Shown piece by piece: positions 16,702 to 52,900 of a stretch of 64,000 nucleotides of DNA. This DNA comes from Xylaria sp. FL1777 (Eukaryota; Ascomycota; Sordariomycetes; Xylariales; Xylariaceae). Made by a program: the position numbers and the translations under genes. The DNA lies in assembly GCA_022578965.1 (NCBI GenBank), contig MU400600.1, positions 62,001-126,000 on the forward strand, read 5' to 3'. The notes under the pieces were generated by a model that was not told the DNA's origin, did no database searches, and saw only the letters and a program-made list of their open reading frames with translations. How positions within the stretch are numbered: the first letter of the stretch is position 1; every line of letters begins with the position of its first letter.

Positions 16702-19617
16702 TCAATGCACCTCGGCAGCAACCATCTTGAGGATCTCCTCGATGCCCTTCCGGGCATTCTTCGGATCCTTCGCGACGCGTTGCCAGATCTCACCGTGTCT
16801 AGGCTCGACGCCGACACACTTCTTGACGACCTCTTCCCTCTTTTCTGGAGTGCCGTGCTCCACGAGGAACTTATAGTACCATGCCCAGCTATCTCCGAGG
16901 TCCGAATCCCGCACGAGGGCCCTCTCGAACCAGTTCTGCGCCTTGTCGAGCCGCCGTTCGCCCCAGAAGATGCGTGCTACGGCTACGAGGAGCACCGGGT
17001 CGTTTTCTGCTTCCTTGACAGCCTCGACAGCCCGCGGCTTGCGTTGCTTTGGCTCTGTTAGGTGCCAGATCTTCTCCGCCCAGAGAAGACCCTGCTTATT
17101 CTTGGGCACGTCTCGGCGCGCACGCTCCATGAGCGACTCAGCCTGTTTCGTATCGCCGGCGCGGAGCTCCAGACGCACGGATTCGCACCATAACTCGGGA
17201 GATTTAGGAACTGCGAGACGGGCTCTGTCGAGCACCGACCGCGCCTTGGGAAGGAGACCCATCGATTCCTCAAGGCGGGCGTAGAGGAGCCAGAGGGGAA
17301 CAGAGCTTGGCACGGCTTTCACACCGGTTGCGTACGCCTCGCGGGCCTGAGGTTTCTTGCCTAGGTCTTCATAGATGTGTCCTTTCATCATCCAGAGTTT
17401 GGGGTAAGAGGGGAAGAGGTTTAGGGCCTGCTGCACCAGGTCGAGGGCCTCGTCGAGGTTGTTGAGCTGCCTCTCGAAGGCGACACTCTTCATCCACACG
17501 CGGTCCGTGGGCGCCTCTTGGCGAGCTTGCTTCAGTAACCCACGAGCTTGTTCTATCTGGTCGTTCTCTGCTTCGAGTTTGACGGCGGCGAGCCAGATGT
17601 CTTCGTTGTTAGGGTTCTGCTGGAATGCTCGGGCGAGAACCCGGCGTGCATTGTCAACTTCTCCAGCCTGCCACTTCTCTTTTGCGAGCATCATCCACAA
17701 AACCTCGCTGTGCGGAACGGCATTGACTGCCTTTTCAAGCACTTGCCAAAGATCCTGTCTCTTGCCATAATTCCTCTCAAGGTCTGCTGCTGCCAGCCAT
17801 ATTGTTTTGCTAGTGGGGAAGACACGCAAGGCATATGCGTAAATAGCCCGGGCCGTTTCGTACATTCCCCTATTGATACTCCCACGTGCATCTTCTAACC
17901 AGGTCTCTTTGCGATCGTCATCCTCATCTAGGCCGTAGCCTAAAGTCTCTCGTATAATCGCACCACAGGAGATGATGGCTCCCTCCTCTTCGCATTTCTC
18001 GGCTTCCGTAATCCATTCCTCCCGCTTCGGCATAGCTGATTCCTTTACTAATACCTGTACCGCACGTTTCATGACATTGACCTTCTCTCCTTCACCTAGC
18101 TGCTCTTGTAATCTTGTAGCGGCAATCCAAATCTCGTGGGACGTCGGACAGTGTTTACGAGCTCTGTTGAGTACCTTTTGCGCATTCTCCGGGGATTCCA
18201 GGCGAGCTAGCGCTAGCCATAGATCAACTGATAGTGGAATAAGCTCGGTGGCCTTCGCGAGGAGTAATTTCGCATCCTCAGGATCTTCTTCGAGATTAAC
18301 CGCCTCCTTCCATAGAGCTTCAGATTCGGGGATATGATCTAGAGCATGCCGTATTACCCGCTTCTTGGATCGCGCATCATCTTCCAGCTTCATCGCCTCG
18401 ACCCATAGTCGGACCGAACGGCTGTTTTTCTTGATGGCGTTCGCAGCGATGATCCTGGCGTTACGCTGGTCGTTCAGTCGGATATTTTCGAGCCACACAT
18501 CTTCGCTTTTGGGACAATGGTCACAGCCACGAGCTATGACATTGCGCGCCGCTACTATTTTACCTGCAAGCTCTTCAAGGCGCGCGGCTGCAATCCAGCC
18601 GGGGCCATTATTCGGATTCGTCTTGATGACTGATTCAAGCAATTCTCGAACTCGGTTTATGTCGCCAACCTGGGCAGCGCTGTCAGGTAGTTGGGATTTT
18701 GCAAGGCTCGTTAGATAACCTTTAGGGTCCACACTAGTAGCACTCCCTGACGTCGTGCTAGTTCCATTCTGAGAGGCCTGGTCAAGTCGAACTTGTAGGA
18801 CTTTGTCTCTGGCTTGTCCAATCTTGGCAAAGTCTGTTACCGTTCCATCGGTGGCGTTCGTAGAACCATTGGCACTGGCAGAGGCGGTGCCATCATCAGC
18901 CACAGTCGTTCCAAGTTCGCCAGCGCTGCTCGCCGCGGCCAAGACACTGTCGGGCACGGCATAGAAACGTTGATGCCTCGCCTGCCTCGCCCGTTTATTC
19001 CTGCCGGTGAGATCGCCGACCTCGGGTAACGCGGCCCACTCGTCTTCGGTAATGCTCTCGAGACCTCGTTTCAAGTCGGCGAACTGTTGGGAGATCTTGG
19101 GGTTCTTGCGTTCGTATTCTTCTCTTTCGGCTTGCTCGCGGGCTTCCCTAGTCGAGTAACAATCGTCGGTAATCTGTTCAACTACTTCCGAGATGAACTG
19201 TGAACTAGCCGGGGGGGAAAAACGGGGTCTGGGAGGGACTGGTGGTACTAACCTTCTTGCTCTTCGACGCTTGTCCATCTTCTCGTCTATTTCACGGTAT
19301 ATCCGATCTGCCTCGTCATCATCCTTGTCGTATATGCCACCTGCAAAGAGGCCAACTTCGTTGTCGGGATCTTGGAATCGTTCGTCGTTGTTGTCATCCT
19401 CCTCGGCGGCCTGGTCCTTCTTCTTGCCGGCGATTGCATCGCTGAAGCCGAGCTGGGCTGCGCGCTTCGCGAGGGCTTCTTTAATCTGATCTTCGGAAGG
19501 GCCTTCTCTCGCCGGTCCCAAATCTGAGCGTGTTGTGAAGCCGGTCGCACCACGTCCCAGTCCAGCAACGTAGTTCTCGGGCGCGGGCTGAGAGAGGAAA
19601 TCGCGTCGCCCCGTCAT
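16702..19617 (-). CDS. PRP1: Pre-mRNA splicing factor Prp1/Prp6
   Basis: The frame is open for 971 codons, but residues 120-154 interrupt a strongly conserved stretch and are an intron: complement(join(16702..19147,19253..19617)), 936 residues after splicing. The 105-nt intron starts GTTAGT and ends ACTAG; removing it restores KRRRARREAREQAEREEYER. Residues 1-150 are the Prp1 N-terminal domain, with motifs YVAGLGRGATGFTTRSDLGP and PEVGDLTGRNKRARQARHQR. The rest is an array of HAT/TPR helices with recurring W-x-x-A-A and NPNN motifs. In yeast and man Prp6 bridges U5 and U4/U6 snRNPs in the tri-snRNP. The length matches fungal orthologues. The divergent neighbour is DIM1, 544 bp away. Confidence 0.93.
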   Translation of the reverse strand: MTGRRDFLSQPAPENYVAGLGRGATGFTTRSDLGPAREGPSEDQIKEALAKRAAQLGFSDAIAGKKKDQAAEEDDNNDERFQDPDNEVGLFAGGIYDKDDDEADRIYREIDEKMDKRRRARRLVPPVPPRPRFSPPASSQFISEVVEQITDDCYSTREAREQAEREEYERKNPKISQQFADLKRGLESITEDEWAALPEVGDLTGRNKRARQARHQRFYAVPDSVLAAASSAGELGTTVADDGTASASANGSTNATDGTVTDFAKIGQARDKVLQVRLDQASQNGTSTTSGSATSVDPKGYLTSLAKSQLPDSAAQVGDINRVRELLESVIKTNPNNGPGWIAAARLEELAGKIVAARNVIARGCDHCPKSEDVWLENIRLNDQRNARIIAANAIKKNSRSVRLWVEAMKLEDDARSKKRVIRHALDHIPESEALWKEAVNLEEDPEDAKLLLAKATELIPLSVDLWLALARLESPENAQKVLNRARKHCPTSHEIWIAATRLQEQLGEGEKVNVMKRAVQVLVKESAMPKREEWITEAEKCEEEGAIISCGAIIRETLGYGLDEDDDRKETWLEDARGSINRGMYETARAIYAYALRVFPTSKTIWLAAADLERNYGKRQDLWQVLEKAVNAVPHSEVLWMMLAKEKWQAGEVDNARRVLARAFQQNPNNEDIWLAAVKLEAENDQIEQARGLLKQARQEAPTDRVWMKSVAFERQLNNLDEALDLVQQALNLFPSYPKLWMMKGHIYEDLGKKPQAREAYATGVKAVPSSVPLWLLYARLEESMGLLPKARSVLDRARLAVPKSPELWCESVRLELRAGDTKQAESLMERARRDVPKNKQGLLWAEKIWHLTEPKQRKPRAVEAVKEAENDPVLLVAVARIFWGERRLDKAQNWFERALVRDSDLGDSWAWYYKFLVEHGTPEKREEVVKKCVGVEPRHGEIWQRVAKDPKNARKGIEEILKMVAAEVH

Positions 19618-20161
19618 GGTAAGGCCGTGACCTGTGGTAAGTTGTCTTCACGGCGATGTCCAGGTGGTAGATTATATTAATATTAGAAAGTATATCTTGA
19701 TGAAAACACGTAGTTCTGGGGTAACAGACGTAGATGAGCGCAAAGGAGAGGGCGCAAACAATTTGGGTTTTTTGGAGTTAATGTTAAGGAAGCTCAAGAA
19801 AATGCGACGAACTAAGTCCCTGCCTAGGTAGAATAGGCTCCTGCTATACGCTAACTATGTGGATAGGCTACCTAAGTACAGTAGGCCATAGATAAGATAA
19901 GAGGTAAAAAGTGGAGATTCCAGTCTACAGCCCACTTTGAAGTTCATCCATCAAAAAAGATGCTATATCGATTGATTGCCCCTCGACCTCACATGCACAT
20001 TTAAAAGCACATTATACCGTCCACACTCTAAGTCTCCAACTATTCCTTCTGACACTAATAAATACTCTTACGATACGCAATTTCCCATATCATATCAGAG
20101 TGTTTCACAGTCGGTTGAATATAAGAATCACCTATAGGTCCCGACTCTCCTGTCGCCCAGA
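19618..20161. promoter_or_regulatory. Divergent promoter between PRP1 and DIM1
   Basis: 544 bp separate the start codons of two divergently transcribed RNA-processing genes, so both promoters must lie here. The sequence is AT-rich with TAGGTA words near 19830-19880. No specific factor site can be assigned by eye. Shared regulation is an inference from the arrangement only. Confidence 0.45.
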
Positions 20162-29974: not shown

Positions 29975-31461
29975 AATGGGATTTGTGGATCGATTAGGGA
30001 GGAATCGAGGGAGGGATGGAGGGATGGAGTGTAGATGGCGATAGTGAGTGAGTGAGTGGTATGTAGCCAGGCATGTATTTTTACGGTTGTAGGGTAAGGG
30101 ATGTGGGTAGGGAGTTGGGAGTTGGGAGTTCATGCTTGATAGGTATATACTTGAGACTGAGAACTCTTACCTGTTAGGTGGCTGTCGACCAATGGGATAC
30201 ATGGTAAGCAGGTACCTACTTGTCGTTGCTTTTTGTGTCTATTTGTTATGAAAAGCTTAACTACACGAATTACTATTATGTTCCCATATGCGTGTTTCAC
30301 GATAAATGATTTCTTCATAACAGAAAAAATGGTTTGGTTTACTGTTAGCATGGGACCAGCCACTGAGGAGTTATGAAATGCTTGCGTGATAATATCTACC
30401 TAGGTATATTCACGACATGCCTATACCTTAACTCTCTCTAGGAGGGAGTGTCTTCATAGTAGCCTCTATCTCAATGATGTGCAGGCTAATTCGACTCAGC
30501 ATCATACCCGAGGTACCTCTCTATTCGAAGCTACGTATATTCTGCAGGACTCGTCGATATCTATGAAGTGCACCACCAGCTCGTAAAATCGAAAGGGTCT
30601 AGAAGTTGCGAGTTTTTCCTAGCACGGAGTCGACGGCTACTATTGTAAGCAGGAGCAGATACGCACTATGCTAACCATTTCTGGGACAGCAGCTATAGCC
30701 GTAGTGAATGGTCGCGATGGTAATAGATCTTTTCATGGCTTTTATAATCAGCATAGGATTTTTCAGTCAAGTTTATATAGGGTAGATTGTTTTTCCTAGT
30801 ATTGGATATAGTTAGGCTTTAAACCGCACTGCATGTATTCCAGCTATGACCGTTACGATGGTACGGGCTACATAGTCGAAACAGCGATACTTCGGATAAT
30901 GAGGGACTTGATGGGGTGAGTATTAAGGTATTTTAAAGCTTGAATGAGTACAAGGACGGCATTTCAGACAAGCTGTATGACATGTAGTTGAATACCTATA
31001 CTTACCTACCTAAGGTAGCTGAGTACAATCTGCGTAATCAAATGAGGCAGAGGAAGCGACCCCTCACGAGTATCCTGAGGTAGTAACAATACATTTCATT
31101 ACGTATTTTGAAGGGAGAATGAAGCCTTTAGGGGAAAACGAGTTAAAAGTGAACAATGAATTAATGCGCGTGGCTTTATCACAGTTTTGAAAAGGAGGGC
31201 AAAGAAAAGGGGAAAATTAATAGAGAACTTTCGAAGAACTCTGGGCTGGTCACCTCTATAAGTGGCCTATGCCCTACGCGCACTCCTACATGTATATTTG
31301 CCTTCTGTTAAGATTGCTAGCCTCATCCAATTTACGTCTTGGTTTGAGTACTCTTCAGCTAAGTACTTTATCAAAAAAGATTTTTAGAAAAAAAAATAGA
31401 AAAAAGAAACAAGAAAAATTTGGGTTGCTACTCCCAGTCAGCTGGGAGGCATCAGGAATTG
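29975..31461. other. Spacer between HHE gene and tRNA-Lys
   Basis: 1.5 kb, AT-rich, with TACCTAGGTA words (for example near 30400 and 31000). No coding gene was seen. The stretch at about 31370-31425 contains several A runs; read on the minus strand these are T runs downstream of the tRNA gene. Confidence 0.55.
31366..31425 (-). terminator. Probable RNA polymerase III terminators
   Basis: Several A runs of five to nine bases on the plus strand are T runs on the minus strand, 40-90 bp past the 3' end of the tRNA-Lys gene. T runs of this kind end Pol III transcripts. The nearest run lies about 40 bp downstream, farther than is usual. Confidence 0.4.
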
Positions 31462-31589
31462 AGCCCGATGCGGGGGTCGAACCTATGTTGCTGTCAGTAC
31501 TAGTCTGACCTCCGAATCAGAGGCAGGGTAAACTCACCCGCAACCTTGAGATTAAGAGTCTCACGCTCTACCGATTGAGCTAACCGGGC
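31462..31589 (-). tRNA. tRNA-Lys(CTT) interrupted in the T-loop
   Basis: Without bases 31483-31537 the minus strand folds into a complete 73-nt tRNA: acceptor GCCCGGT/ATCGGGC, D-arm GCTC..GAGC, anticodon stem TGAGA/TCTCA with loop CTCTTAA (anticodon CTT, lysine), T-arm GCGGG-TTCGACC-CCCGC and discriminator T. There is no intron at the usual position 37/38. Instead the T-arm is split after GCGG by 55 bp. The insert also splits the internal B-box promoter (GGTTCGA). The gene may be a pseudogene, or the insert may be removed; the sequence alone cannot decide. All stems remain perfectly paired, so decay, if any, is recent. Confidence 0.85.
31483..31537 (-). other. 55-bp spliceosomal-intron-like insert in tRNA
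   Basis: On the tRNA strand the insert starts GTGAGT, contains TACTGAC (a good branch-site match with its A 12 nt from the end) and ends CAACATAG. GT..AG removal restores the T-arm exactly. The triplet GGT is present at both edges, which could be a short target duplication or the usual proto-splice-site ambiguity. It also holds a hairpin, CCTCT/GGAGG. Length and signals match the short introns of protein genes in this window. No similarity to the DIM1 introns is visible by eye. Confidence 0.6.
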
Positions 31590-46281: not shown

Positions 46282-47423
46282 GGGTGTAGATCCAATGACG
46301 TGCACCAGAGGCTCGCCTTATTTTATACCAAGGCTCTCTAGATGAAGCTAATAGCTTAATAAGCTATATTGATCTCGACGAGCCACTTAAGGAAGTCTAT
46401 CGAGGTAAGTGGGATATGTCATCAGATGATCTGATAACACCTACCTCTCAGATAGGTCAGTTAAGCCACAGCTAGATTAGGGCCTTAATATACCCAATCC
46501 AATCCTTCCAAACAGGATCTATTATGCTTAGTAACCAATGAAAAGGGTGGTTATAAATGTAATCTGACCTCTCACTTCTATTAGATGAACGGGGTCTCCG
46601 AATAATCTAAGCGTAATATTGAAGTTGAGGCTTGGTCAAAAGGGATATTTTCAATAGAACCTCAGTGTCTTAGCTGCTTCTGTATTACAGAAATAAACCT
46701 TTACTATCTAGCTAAAAATCACTTGAGTGCTGTATGGTCCTCGAATAGGGGCTCTACAACTATCTTGAAGCTAATGCGCAGGAACCTATCTATCTGATAG
46801 CACAGCGCCTTTTCTCGATAACTTCCCCACAATGGATTTATTAAGTATCATCATAGACTACATAGGTACATCCTCCAATCATCCTAGACGGGAAAGAAAC
46901 AGCGGCTACGAAAATCGAAAGGAGGCTTGCAAATAAACAAGTCGTTGTTCTCTGATCCGCGAGGGGATGAATGAAAAGGGGGGAGGGGGGCATAGGCCCA
47001 CTTACTTAGATGGCTGGGATACTTTCCTTTCCTCTGTTTTGTTCCGCGCGGTACGGTACGATCCGATCGGATCGTACCTGAGGATACGATATGTGTATTA
47101 CGTACGAATATCCTGGGTACTATCTAGCTGCTATGTGTAGGTGAGCTGATCTGGGTTCATTTGAGCAATATGGGGTCATGGATGCATTGCATTGAATGCA
47201 TGAATGAATGGCCTTCCTGCGGCCATCAAGGCCGAGGATGGAGCCGGGGCCGACTGCTGGAAAATGATATTAATGTTGATTTTGGCTGGTTGGTTGGTTG
47301 GTTGGTTGCTGTTCGAATTATGATGAGTTGATGCGTGATGTGGGTGTGCAAATTCGGTTGGTTACTGGCGTACATGTATTGAATGGGCTTCACGATAGAG
47401 TTGAGCGGGGGGGGGGCGGGGGG

Positions 47424-47479
<56 letters not shown>

Positions 47480-49938: not shown

Positions 49939-52900
49939 GTGAGTGGGTGAGAGTGGGAGAAACGCGCTGCTGACGTCAAGCCGCACTGCGTCGTTAGTGC
50001 CGGTCTGGGCAGAGAGGGCGGCACCGAAGGAAAGGTCTCAACATGAATGAGTTGTCCCGAAATGACCTGTTTCGTGGCGCGAGCAAGGCAGTCTTTTCCG
50101 AGTGCATTGCTTGGTATTGGCTGATGGTTGGCGGAAGGACTTGTCCATGGAGTACGGAGTTTTGGTGTTCAATATCTGGCACTGGAGCTGGGCGTGCGAG
50201 ATAGGACCTACCTACAGGAGTTGGTCGGATTGCTAGTTGGCGAGGTGAGGAGTTGTTGGCTGGCTGGCTGGCTGCAGTATCGTGGCGTATCAAGGGCTTA
50301 GACATACAGATAGACATACGCATCAAGATAGATAGTATACATCGCACACCGGTTGCGGAGAAGCAGATACGGTATCCAGAAATGAATGAAAAGAAAACGA
50401 GAGGGAGGCCGTTTCGCAGGCCAACATATGTGAGGTCCTGATGTTATCGTCATGATGTACAATCACCAGTTAATGGTTGGGGCGATAAGGTCTCGCGAAC
50501 GTTAGAAGTAAGTAATTAATATATCGATAGATCTTGCCGTGGCCCACGAATATGTATGTAGGTAGTGAGTGTACTTACACAACCTGGGGGTTCATATCGC
50601 CGTTTATGCATGCATGCACTGCAACTTTAACTGCACGATTTAGGAAGCCGAGGATACCCCAGTGTAGGATACACCACAGTATATGGGTAGCATTGGTTGC
50701 AACGCGATGCCATGCGATGCCATGCCCTTGTCCCGCGTGATTCCGTGTGGGAAAGCAAGTTCAGGCGGGCTGGCGAGCTGGCTGGCTGGCTGGCTGATCC
50801 ATCCGTCGCCGGATAGCGACAGCGCGGAGAACGTGAGATGATGACATTCATGATTCGTCCTTCTTTCTACCGGTATTTCATTTCCGCTCCTGCTCCTGCG
50901 GCACCATTACGCCGAGATTATAAATAAATCGTGGTTCTTTTAAACATGTGCGCCGTTCGTACGAGTAAAGTAGGTAGATACTGTAGCATATACCTACATC
51001 AATCTCTAATTTCGCGGGATTACAGGCTCAATACGGCGTCATTACTAGGATGGAGCAAGGAGGGTGTGTTCGAGCTTCACAGTTCATAGCATACAACACG
51101 TGTAGGTAGCATAAGAGAGAACCCCTCTCTATATCGGAGCTCGGACCTTTTTTTTCGCCTGCTTGATGTATCAGTAAGTAATCACAATCTTGGTTCTTAG
51201 GTAAAAGCATGACAAGAACCTATCAATTCCTGGTAGCACAACCACTGATCAGCCTCTACACTACTCAACTAGGCTATGTGTGTACGCCGATCGGTTTCTG
51301 TACATGTGTTAGAGTAGGTCGTGTACACATGGCACCGCAGCCTTGGTCCGCGACGTGGCCGACTGTCGCGTCTTCTGAGTCTCCGACTGCGTTTTACGTT
51401 GACGGAAAAAGAGACCAACGGTTAGACGAAGGACATTTCACAACATGCTATGAACTGCTTTCTGTTTCCATTAGATAATAATGGGTAAAGCAAGTCGAGC
51501 AAGTCGAGCAAGTCGAGCAAGTCGAGCAAGTCGAGCAAGTCGAGCAAGTCGAGCAAGTCGAGCAAGTCGAGCAAGTCGAGCAAGTCGAGCAAGTCGCCGC
51601 GTGGTTTGTCGAGTTGTTCCGTTGTCCCCCTTTCCCTCTCGTTCTCGTTCTCGAAGGCCGAAAGAGTCAGTTTGTTTCAGCTTAGTATTGTGGCATCTCT
51701 TAGTGTCGCCTGTATTACGCAGATCAGCAAAGCAGCTAACAGACAAGTACGTGTCTGCGTACACTACTAAACCAATGAGCCAGTAATAATGGCAGAGTGG
51801 CACGTACGGTCAGCTCTCTTGGGGGGCGGTGCTGCGCTGGTAGGAAAGAAAGAAGGACTTTTCCTTTGCTACCCACCCCGACCCCTGCATGGCGCCGGGA
51901 CTGGACCAGGATCGCCAGGAACGGGAATGCGAGTTGCGTTTCCTGGGCGGCTGGACCCAAATAAGACCCCTATCCAGGGGCCAGCGCCGAGTCATGATTG
52001 GCCACGAAGTGCTGACAGGCGGATCGGTGCCTTGCATTAGCTGCAGAAGCTCATCCAAGAAAAAATTAACGACGAGTGAGAGGGGACAAGACGAGAGGAG
52101 GCAGCCTGTTCCGCCCCGTCTATACGCTCGCTCTCTCCCTCTCCTCCGGCAGAAGCTGCCGTAGCTGAGATGCCGTTTCTGTTTGTTCCTCTCTTCCTCT
52201 CCCAGACATACATACACACGCTATGTATACAGGACCGTCGGTCATTTTAGCCAAAGGTCCGGTAGAATGGGTGGTGAAATGAACACCATGTTAGATACCA
52301 CTTTTGTTGATTGTTGTTGTGTGTTGGGAATTGAGACAGACAGTAAGATGCGAGTGATGGACTTTTACTGAGCAGATCTGTACGCCATATCAACCTATCA
52401 TTTCGTTAGATCCAATGGCACTTCTTGGGGAAGAGGAAGAAAGGAAGAGAGGAGAAGAAAAGGAAAAAGAGAGACGGGGAAGCTGACAACTGTAAGGTAG
52501 GTAGTACGGATTACTACTGTACAGGTACGGTACCGGTAATGGTTGCGTTAAGTACAGAATAGGACTCGACGCTTGCACTACAGGCTGCTCCAGCTAGGTA
52601 GAGTACCTACAGTATGTTGTTTCAGCCCCAATTCACGCTTCTCTACTCCAACATGGTCCCTACCTTGTTTCTCTCTCATTAGATTCCCGTGATCCGGGGG
52701 CCGTCCTTGCGCTGTTTCTTCCCGGGTGCCACTGTGGCTTTGATCAGGCAGGCAGCGTAAAGGTATGTACAGGTACCGTACTGCGTACATACCAAGTAAT
52801 GTAAGATGTACCTGCATATTGATGTTACAGCAGCACCTTTCCATGTACAAATGGAGCGGAGAATATGTACAATAAGTATAGTATGTACACAATATACTAT

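Follow-up and report, generated by a model that had tools for sequence, protein, structure and literature searches.

Candidate spliceosomal-type introns in the T arm of four of the five tRNA-Lys(CTT) genes found in Xylaria sp. FL1777

Introduction

The introns of tRNA genes and those of mRNA genes are taught as separate worlds, which differ in their position, their enzymes and the polymerase that makes the transcript. Fungal U6 snRNA genes contain spliceosomal introns. To our knowledge, introns of the mRNA type have been established in Pol III transcripts only for U6, and for U3 as well if that RNA is counted among them. The abstract of PMC5832005 does count U3 as a Pol III product, and that paper names U3 and U6 as the only small structured RNAs in which frequent interruption by an intron was known up to then. 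T-arm introns of another kind are known in tRNA genes of archaea, nucleomorphs and a red alga, according to the consulted parts of PMC3978253 and PMC4090602. Among the matches listed in a search of the open-access literature (titles and abstract openings), no spliceosomal intron in a nuclear tRNA gene was found, which agrees with the preliminary description of the present locus, whose author knew of no described case. In the fungus Xylaria sp. FL1777, four tRNA genes appear to cross between the two worlds at one single point.

The interrupted tRNA-Lys(CTT) gene

The window, the whole 64-kb stretch of DNA that was analysed, corresponds to contig C95:62001-126000 and contains a single Rfam match at the gathering score. 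This match is a tRNA (RF00005) at 31589-31462 on the minus strand; it covers the full model (1-71) with 52.3 bits, and its T arm has 61 nt where the model has 6. From 5' to 3' the gene is composed of a 52-nt exon (bases 1-52; 31538..31589, minus strand, as for all parts of the gene given below), a 55-nt insert (31483..31537) and a 21-nt exon (bases 53-73; 31462..31482). The insert, which is read here as a putative spliceosomal intron of the U2 type, runs GTGAGT...TACTGAC...ATAG. ARAGORN found zero tRNAs in the uncut window with default settings; it reads tRNA-Lys(ctt) once the 55 bp are taken out. The earlier claim that this excision restores a 73-nt tRNA-Lys(CTT) is thus borne out by the Rfam match and by ARAGORN.

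Cutting after base 51, 52, 53 or 54 gives the same 73-nt tRNA, so that four registers are equivalent. Register 52/53 was chosen because it is the only one that obeys the GT-AG rule, and strictly this puts the insert at the final base pair of the T stem and not in the loop. The placement in the T loop given in the preliminary description has to be amended. A group I or group II intron was also considered and rejected: there was no Rfam match to either at the gathering score in the window or at the Lys loci L062-L066, and the insert is far too short.

Other features of the window include the gene for the splicing factor PRP1/Prp6 (16702-19647, minus strand), whose intron was placed by spliced alignment. 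Its reading frame as searched matches a protein of Xylaria sp. FL1777 at 96% and is longer than that protein. The gene lies about 12 kb from the interrupted tRNA gene, and this nearness is probably a coincidence. The window also contains a G run at 47407-47478 (72 bases, 94% matches) and, at 51489-51596, a perfect tandem array in which the 9-bp unit AGCAAGTCG occurs 12 times.

The Lys-CTT genes of the genome

The genome searched was the 58.7-Mb assembly of 588 contigs. A BLAST search with the spliced tRNA detected five Lys-CTT genes, and four of them carry a T-arm insert at one common point, which is 52/53 and not the canonical position 37/38. These are the window gene (C95:93462-93589, insert of 55 bp) and the copies at C8:92094-92224 (58 bp), C5:225515-225650 (63 bp) and C107:91543-91675 (60 bp). 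The fifth gene, at C7:531595-531706 (L066), is without the T-arm insert and has a 39-nt intron at 37/38; no uninterrupted gene was present among the five. The exon bases are the same at 73 of 73 positions in all five copies (0 differences). The isoacceptor is thus served by two kinds of intron, which occur together in none of the five genes. The insert is more than a chance arrangement, as four of the five genes found by BLAST have it at the same point and with the same signals.

A tRNA family search of the genome gave 62 matches, from 63 scored among 3048 first-look candidates. Three of the 62 are Lys-CTT genes with the T-arm insert, and the C107 copy was missed. ARAGORN identified Lys(ctt) in all four interrupted genes after excision of the GT..AG stretch. 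When introns were allowed, it reported no tRNA in the C8 gene or in the 128-nt gene of the window, and for the C5 copy it reported a Lys tRNA with a 43-nt intron at base 37, which is taken for an artefact of the ARAGORN model.

Other tRNAs were searched with the pattern GTRAGT-N30-60-YAGGTTCRA, which covers only 5' splice sites of the GTRAGT form. It had 24 genomic matches, and the reversed pattern had 27. Four of the 24 are the Lys genes; for the other 20 ARAGORN gave no tRNA on excision. Within the 62 matches, an incomplete census, and for GTRAGT sites only, no T-arm GT-AG intron was seen in another tRNA isotype. The insert pattern had 0 matches in the other genomic and viral contig sets, and an exact 27-base Lys-CTT probe had 0 there too, so that the first result carries no information on relatives.

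Splicing signals of the inserts

At register 52/53 all four inserts have GT...AG ends. Each starts with GTGAGT, close to GTRAGT (31532..31537 in the window gene, six bases common to the four), and each ends with TAG (31483..31485). A CTRAY motif is also present in all four, and the distance of its A from the last insert base is 11-14 nt; in the window gene this is the branch-site-like TACTGAC at 31493..31499, whose A lies 11 nt before the last base. Among shuffled inserts, CTRAY at 9-15 nt, a wider placement, was found at a frequency of 0.04 per insert. The cores of the inserts are otherwise unrelated: none of the six pairs aligned better than shuffles (fraction with at least the observed score 0.11 to 0.96). 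The same holds for the 100-bp upstream flanks of the four interrupted genes, again in six of six pairs (fraction 0.24 to 0.75). If the inserts are saturated in this way, we estimate the probability that three further inserts share GAGT by chance at about 10^-7.

The contrast between identical exons and unrelated inserts and flanks suggests that the exons are under selection, whereas the inserts may drift freely. The exon identity could owe a part to concerted evolution among the tRNA copies. The kept parts of the inserts appear to be those that a spliceosome reads.

The inserts were compared with 12 mRNA introns of the same genome, from two beta-tubulin genes and PRP1, whose edges come from one spliced alignment only. 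These introns are 51-105 nt long; GTRNGT is found in 5 of the 12, TAG in 7 and CTRAY near the end in 6. The tRNA inserts (55-63 nt) are within this length range. They seem to resemble good mRNA introns, and their signals are, if anything, better. Membership among the spliceosomal introns is suggested by four features of the sequence, namely the GT-AG ends, the 5' splice site, the branch site and the length. The idea of the preliminary description that a small spliceosomal-type intron is present in a Pol III tRNA gene is thus well supported at the level of sequence, as the splice signals are conserved in four inserts that are otherwise unrelated.

Promoter and 3' trailer

The A box and B box were assigned by the established motifs of Pol III promoters, and we take them to be the internal promoter of the gene. 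The A box TAGCTCAATCGG (31571..31582) is intact. The last G of the insert together with GTTCGACCCC, which starts at base 53, gives GGTTCGACCCC, a complete B box 3' of the insert, in four of four genes. In the window gene this B box is at 31473..31483 and spans the 3' splice site, with the last insert base as its first G. At 52/53 a GT-AG intron can be inserted at no cost to the B box, whose two Gs are supplied again by AG|G. The insert had been said to break the B box; this was wrong, since AG|GTTCGACCCC re-forms GGTTCGACCCC across the 3' splice site. All four interrupted genes have intact A and B boxes and a T run, which in the window gene is at 31414..31418 and resembles a Pol III terminator.

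About 45 nt after the five Lys-CTT genes are also alike, in contrast to the flanks upstream of the four interrupted genes. In the window gene this conserved trailer is at 31419..31461, with a covarying hairpin at 31431-31448; in the comparison of the five genes, 3 of the 15 predicted pairs of the hairpin are changed on both sides. A pattern derived from the trailer had 4 matches, all behind Lys-CTT genes, and a control had 0; the deviating C5 trailer was missed. The trailer is part of the gene, and we can only guess that it keeps the T-arm region open. When the spliced tRNAs of the four interrupted genes were folded together with their trailers, RNAfold preferred pairing between the trailer and the 3' strand of the tRNA. 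The gain was -2.5, -2.5, -2.5 and -1.6 kcal/mol, and 0 for C7. A role of the trailer as an anti-tRNA switch was set aside as no more than an idea, as the gain is small and not significant (9-13% of shuffled trailers equal it). The trailer hairpin itself is better supported than this pairing.

Similar letters, CAATTCCTTGATGC, begin the trailer of the elongator Met gene L054. Another downstream element was observed at the tRNA-Ala(AGC) genes L032-L037 (C4, C17, C25, C54, C56, C194), where the hairpin GGAGGTTCRATTCCTCC follows at 5-6 bases in six of the six genes in the tRNA match list. It is an orphan hairpin like a T arm with a B box, followed by ...ACCA in 4 of the 6 loci, and might be an additional B box or what is left of a tRNA.

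Intron-like inserts in the U6 genes

The genome has three U6 snRNA matches (L093, L094 and L095) and one match to the fungal U3. L093 (C1:675236-675393) has 158 nt compared with the 105 positions of the U6 model, and an insert GTAGGC...GCTAAC...ATAG sits between GAAGAT and TAGCATGG. We read L095 (C18:120452 and beyond) as U6 exons with two inserts. The first of these is GTAAGT...GCTAAC...TTTAG; the second starts with GAAAGT, which is not GT, and ends with ACTAAC...ATAG. The Infernal alignment of L095 is sensible in the 3' part only. The L094 copy is without an intron-like insert. Introns of the mRNA type thus appear to be present in another Pol III gene of Xylaria sp. FL1777.

Alternative origins of the inserts

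The inserts might instead be ectopic tRNA introns of the kind known from archaea, nucleomorphs and Cyanidioschyzon, in which case the tRNA splicing endonuclease would cut them out and tRNA ligase would seal the exons. T-arm introns exist elsewhere: the consulted part of PMC4090602 reports archaeal sites that include 53/54, and 3-nt T-arm introns in the Guillardia theta nucleomorph, for which RT-PCR demonstrated the removal. In the present fungus the ordinary pathway presumably operates, since 14 others of the 62 tRNA matches have an intron close to the anticodon according to ARAGORN. Moreover, UGAG of the insert pairs with UUCG of the 3' exon in four of four genes (two of the four pairs are G-U), and this could be the central helix of one bulge-helix-bulge layout in register 52. 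The insert half of this helix is the 5' splice site itself, and no second helix adjoins it at either end in any of the four genes. The bulge-helix-bulge motif (two 3-nt bulges round a 4-bp helix), full or relaxed, was found in 0 of 16 gene-by-register cases with two layouts. The canonical C7 intron, the one control (n=1), is without the strict motif too, and structure alone therefore does not exclude the tRNA endonuclease. What is conserved in the otherwise unrelated inserts is GTGAGT, the branch site and TAG, none of which the tRNA endonuclease is known to read. An endonuclease origin is thus considered unlikely.

It is also conceivable that the four interrupted copies are pseudogenes and that tRNA-Lys(CUU) comes only from C7. 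The T-arm insert disrupts the tRNA fold, C7 is a complete alternative source, and single odd copies of this kind are usually taken for pseudogenes (PMC4090602, in the part consulted). The interrupted genes are, however, not a single copy but four of the five. All five copies have identical exons while the inserts and upstream flanks of the four are saturated, and the A and B boxes, the T run, the covarying trailer and the splice signals are kept in the four copies. The decay that is typical of pseudogenes was seen neither in the exons (0 differences in 73) nor in the promoter, whose A and B boxes are intact. It would also be odd if C7 alone supplied the tRNA for AAG, because AAG is the commoner Lys codon (146 AAG versus 76 AAA over six open frames, with a tie in one). 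A pseudogene origin is therefore decidedly improbable. In particular, the fresh pseudogene proposed in the preliminary description finds no support: the interruption is old and the exons have been kept, because the inserts in four of the five genes have diverged beyond recognition and the exons agree in all five.

That description had further suggested an introner-like element. The inserts would then be copies of a mobile element, and some models of intron gain fit the GGT repeat that flanks the insert at each end and is also the source of the register ambiguity. The four inserts are mutually unrelated, however, and a genome search with each of them finds itself alone, so that the suggestion is not sustained and such an origin is highly improbable. 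A recent spread of introners is contradicted, since none of the four inserts has another genomic copy; an ancient gain of this kind is conceivable. An assembly or sequencing artefact, for which nothing speaks beyond the draft state of the assembly, is scarcely credible, because the four inserts differ, lie on four contigs behind upstream flanks that are unrelated, and yet have coherent signals.

Discussion

The likely explanation is that four of the five Lys-CTT genes contain a U2-type spliceosomal intron at 52/53 of the T stem and are functional Pol III tRNA genes. Against this stands the C7 gene, which with its ordinary 37/38 intron is complete and could supply the tRNA by itself. We infer that the interrupted genes may be transcribed and their inserts excised, that the excising machine may be the spliceosome and that the product may function. 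Pol III would transcribe each gene from the A box and from the B box to which the last insert base contributes its first G. The spliceosome would take out the intron of 55-63 nt by means of GTGAGT, the CTRAY branch site and TAG before the T arm can fold. The usual end processing after splicing would then give one and the same 73-nt tRNA from the interrupted genes.

A wider proposal is more tentative, and we regard it as possible rather than probable. The isoacceptor for AAG might be mostly dependent on the spliceosome, and AAG decoding might be tied to splicing capacity. The Pol III transcripts with an intron might be kept open to the spliceosome before the T arm folds, perhaps by the trailer hairpin and its pairing with the 3' strand of the tRNA, and the letters AG|GTTCGACCCC might be common to the internal promoter and to the 3' splice site.

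If RNA data confirm the spliceosomal reading, tRNA precursors made by Pol III would be among the RNAs that the spliceosome can process in living cells. An internal promoter could also gain an intron, provided that the B box is restored by the 3' splice site. In addition, a gene finder such as ARAGORN, which reported no tRNA in the window, would overlook real genes.

The Lys-CTT inserts can be compared with several known systems. The canonical introns of nuclear tRNA genes likewise interrupt tRNA genes, as the 39-nt intron of C7 does, but their position and signals are different. Ectopic tRNA introns of archaea, nucleomorphs and Cyanidioschyzon merolae are similar to the inserts in that they occur outside 37/38, T-arm sites included (PMC4090602 and PMC3978253, in the parts consulted). 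In the same excerpts, the archaeal and C. merolae introns are associated with a bulge-helix-bulge and the tRNA endonuclease, whereas the Lys-CTT inserts are without that motif; the Guillardia nucleomorph introns are described there as often lacking a defined motif. The Lys-CTT inserts differ from these ectopic introns in having GT-branch-AG signals and the length of mRNA introns. A resemblance to the introns of the fungal U3 snoRNA is also apparent, as these are normal spliceosomal introns in a small structured RNA, according to the consulted part of PMC5832005, although U3 is not a tRNA. The inserts are also like the U6 introns of fungi, since they would be mRNA-type introns within a small structured Pol III RNA. 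U6 is not a tRNA either and acts inside the spliceosome, so that a gain of introns by reverse splicing is easy to imagine; the Lys-CTT genes, in contrast, encode a tRNA that has an internal promoter and an intron pathway of its own.
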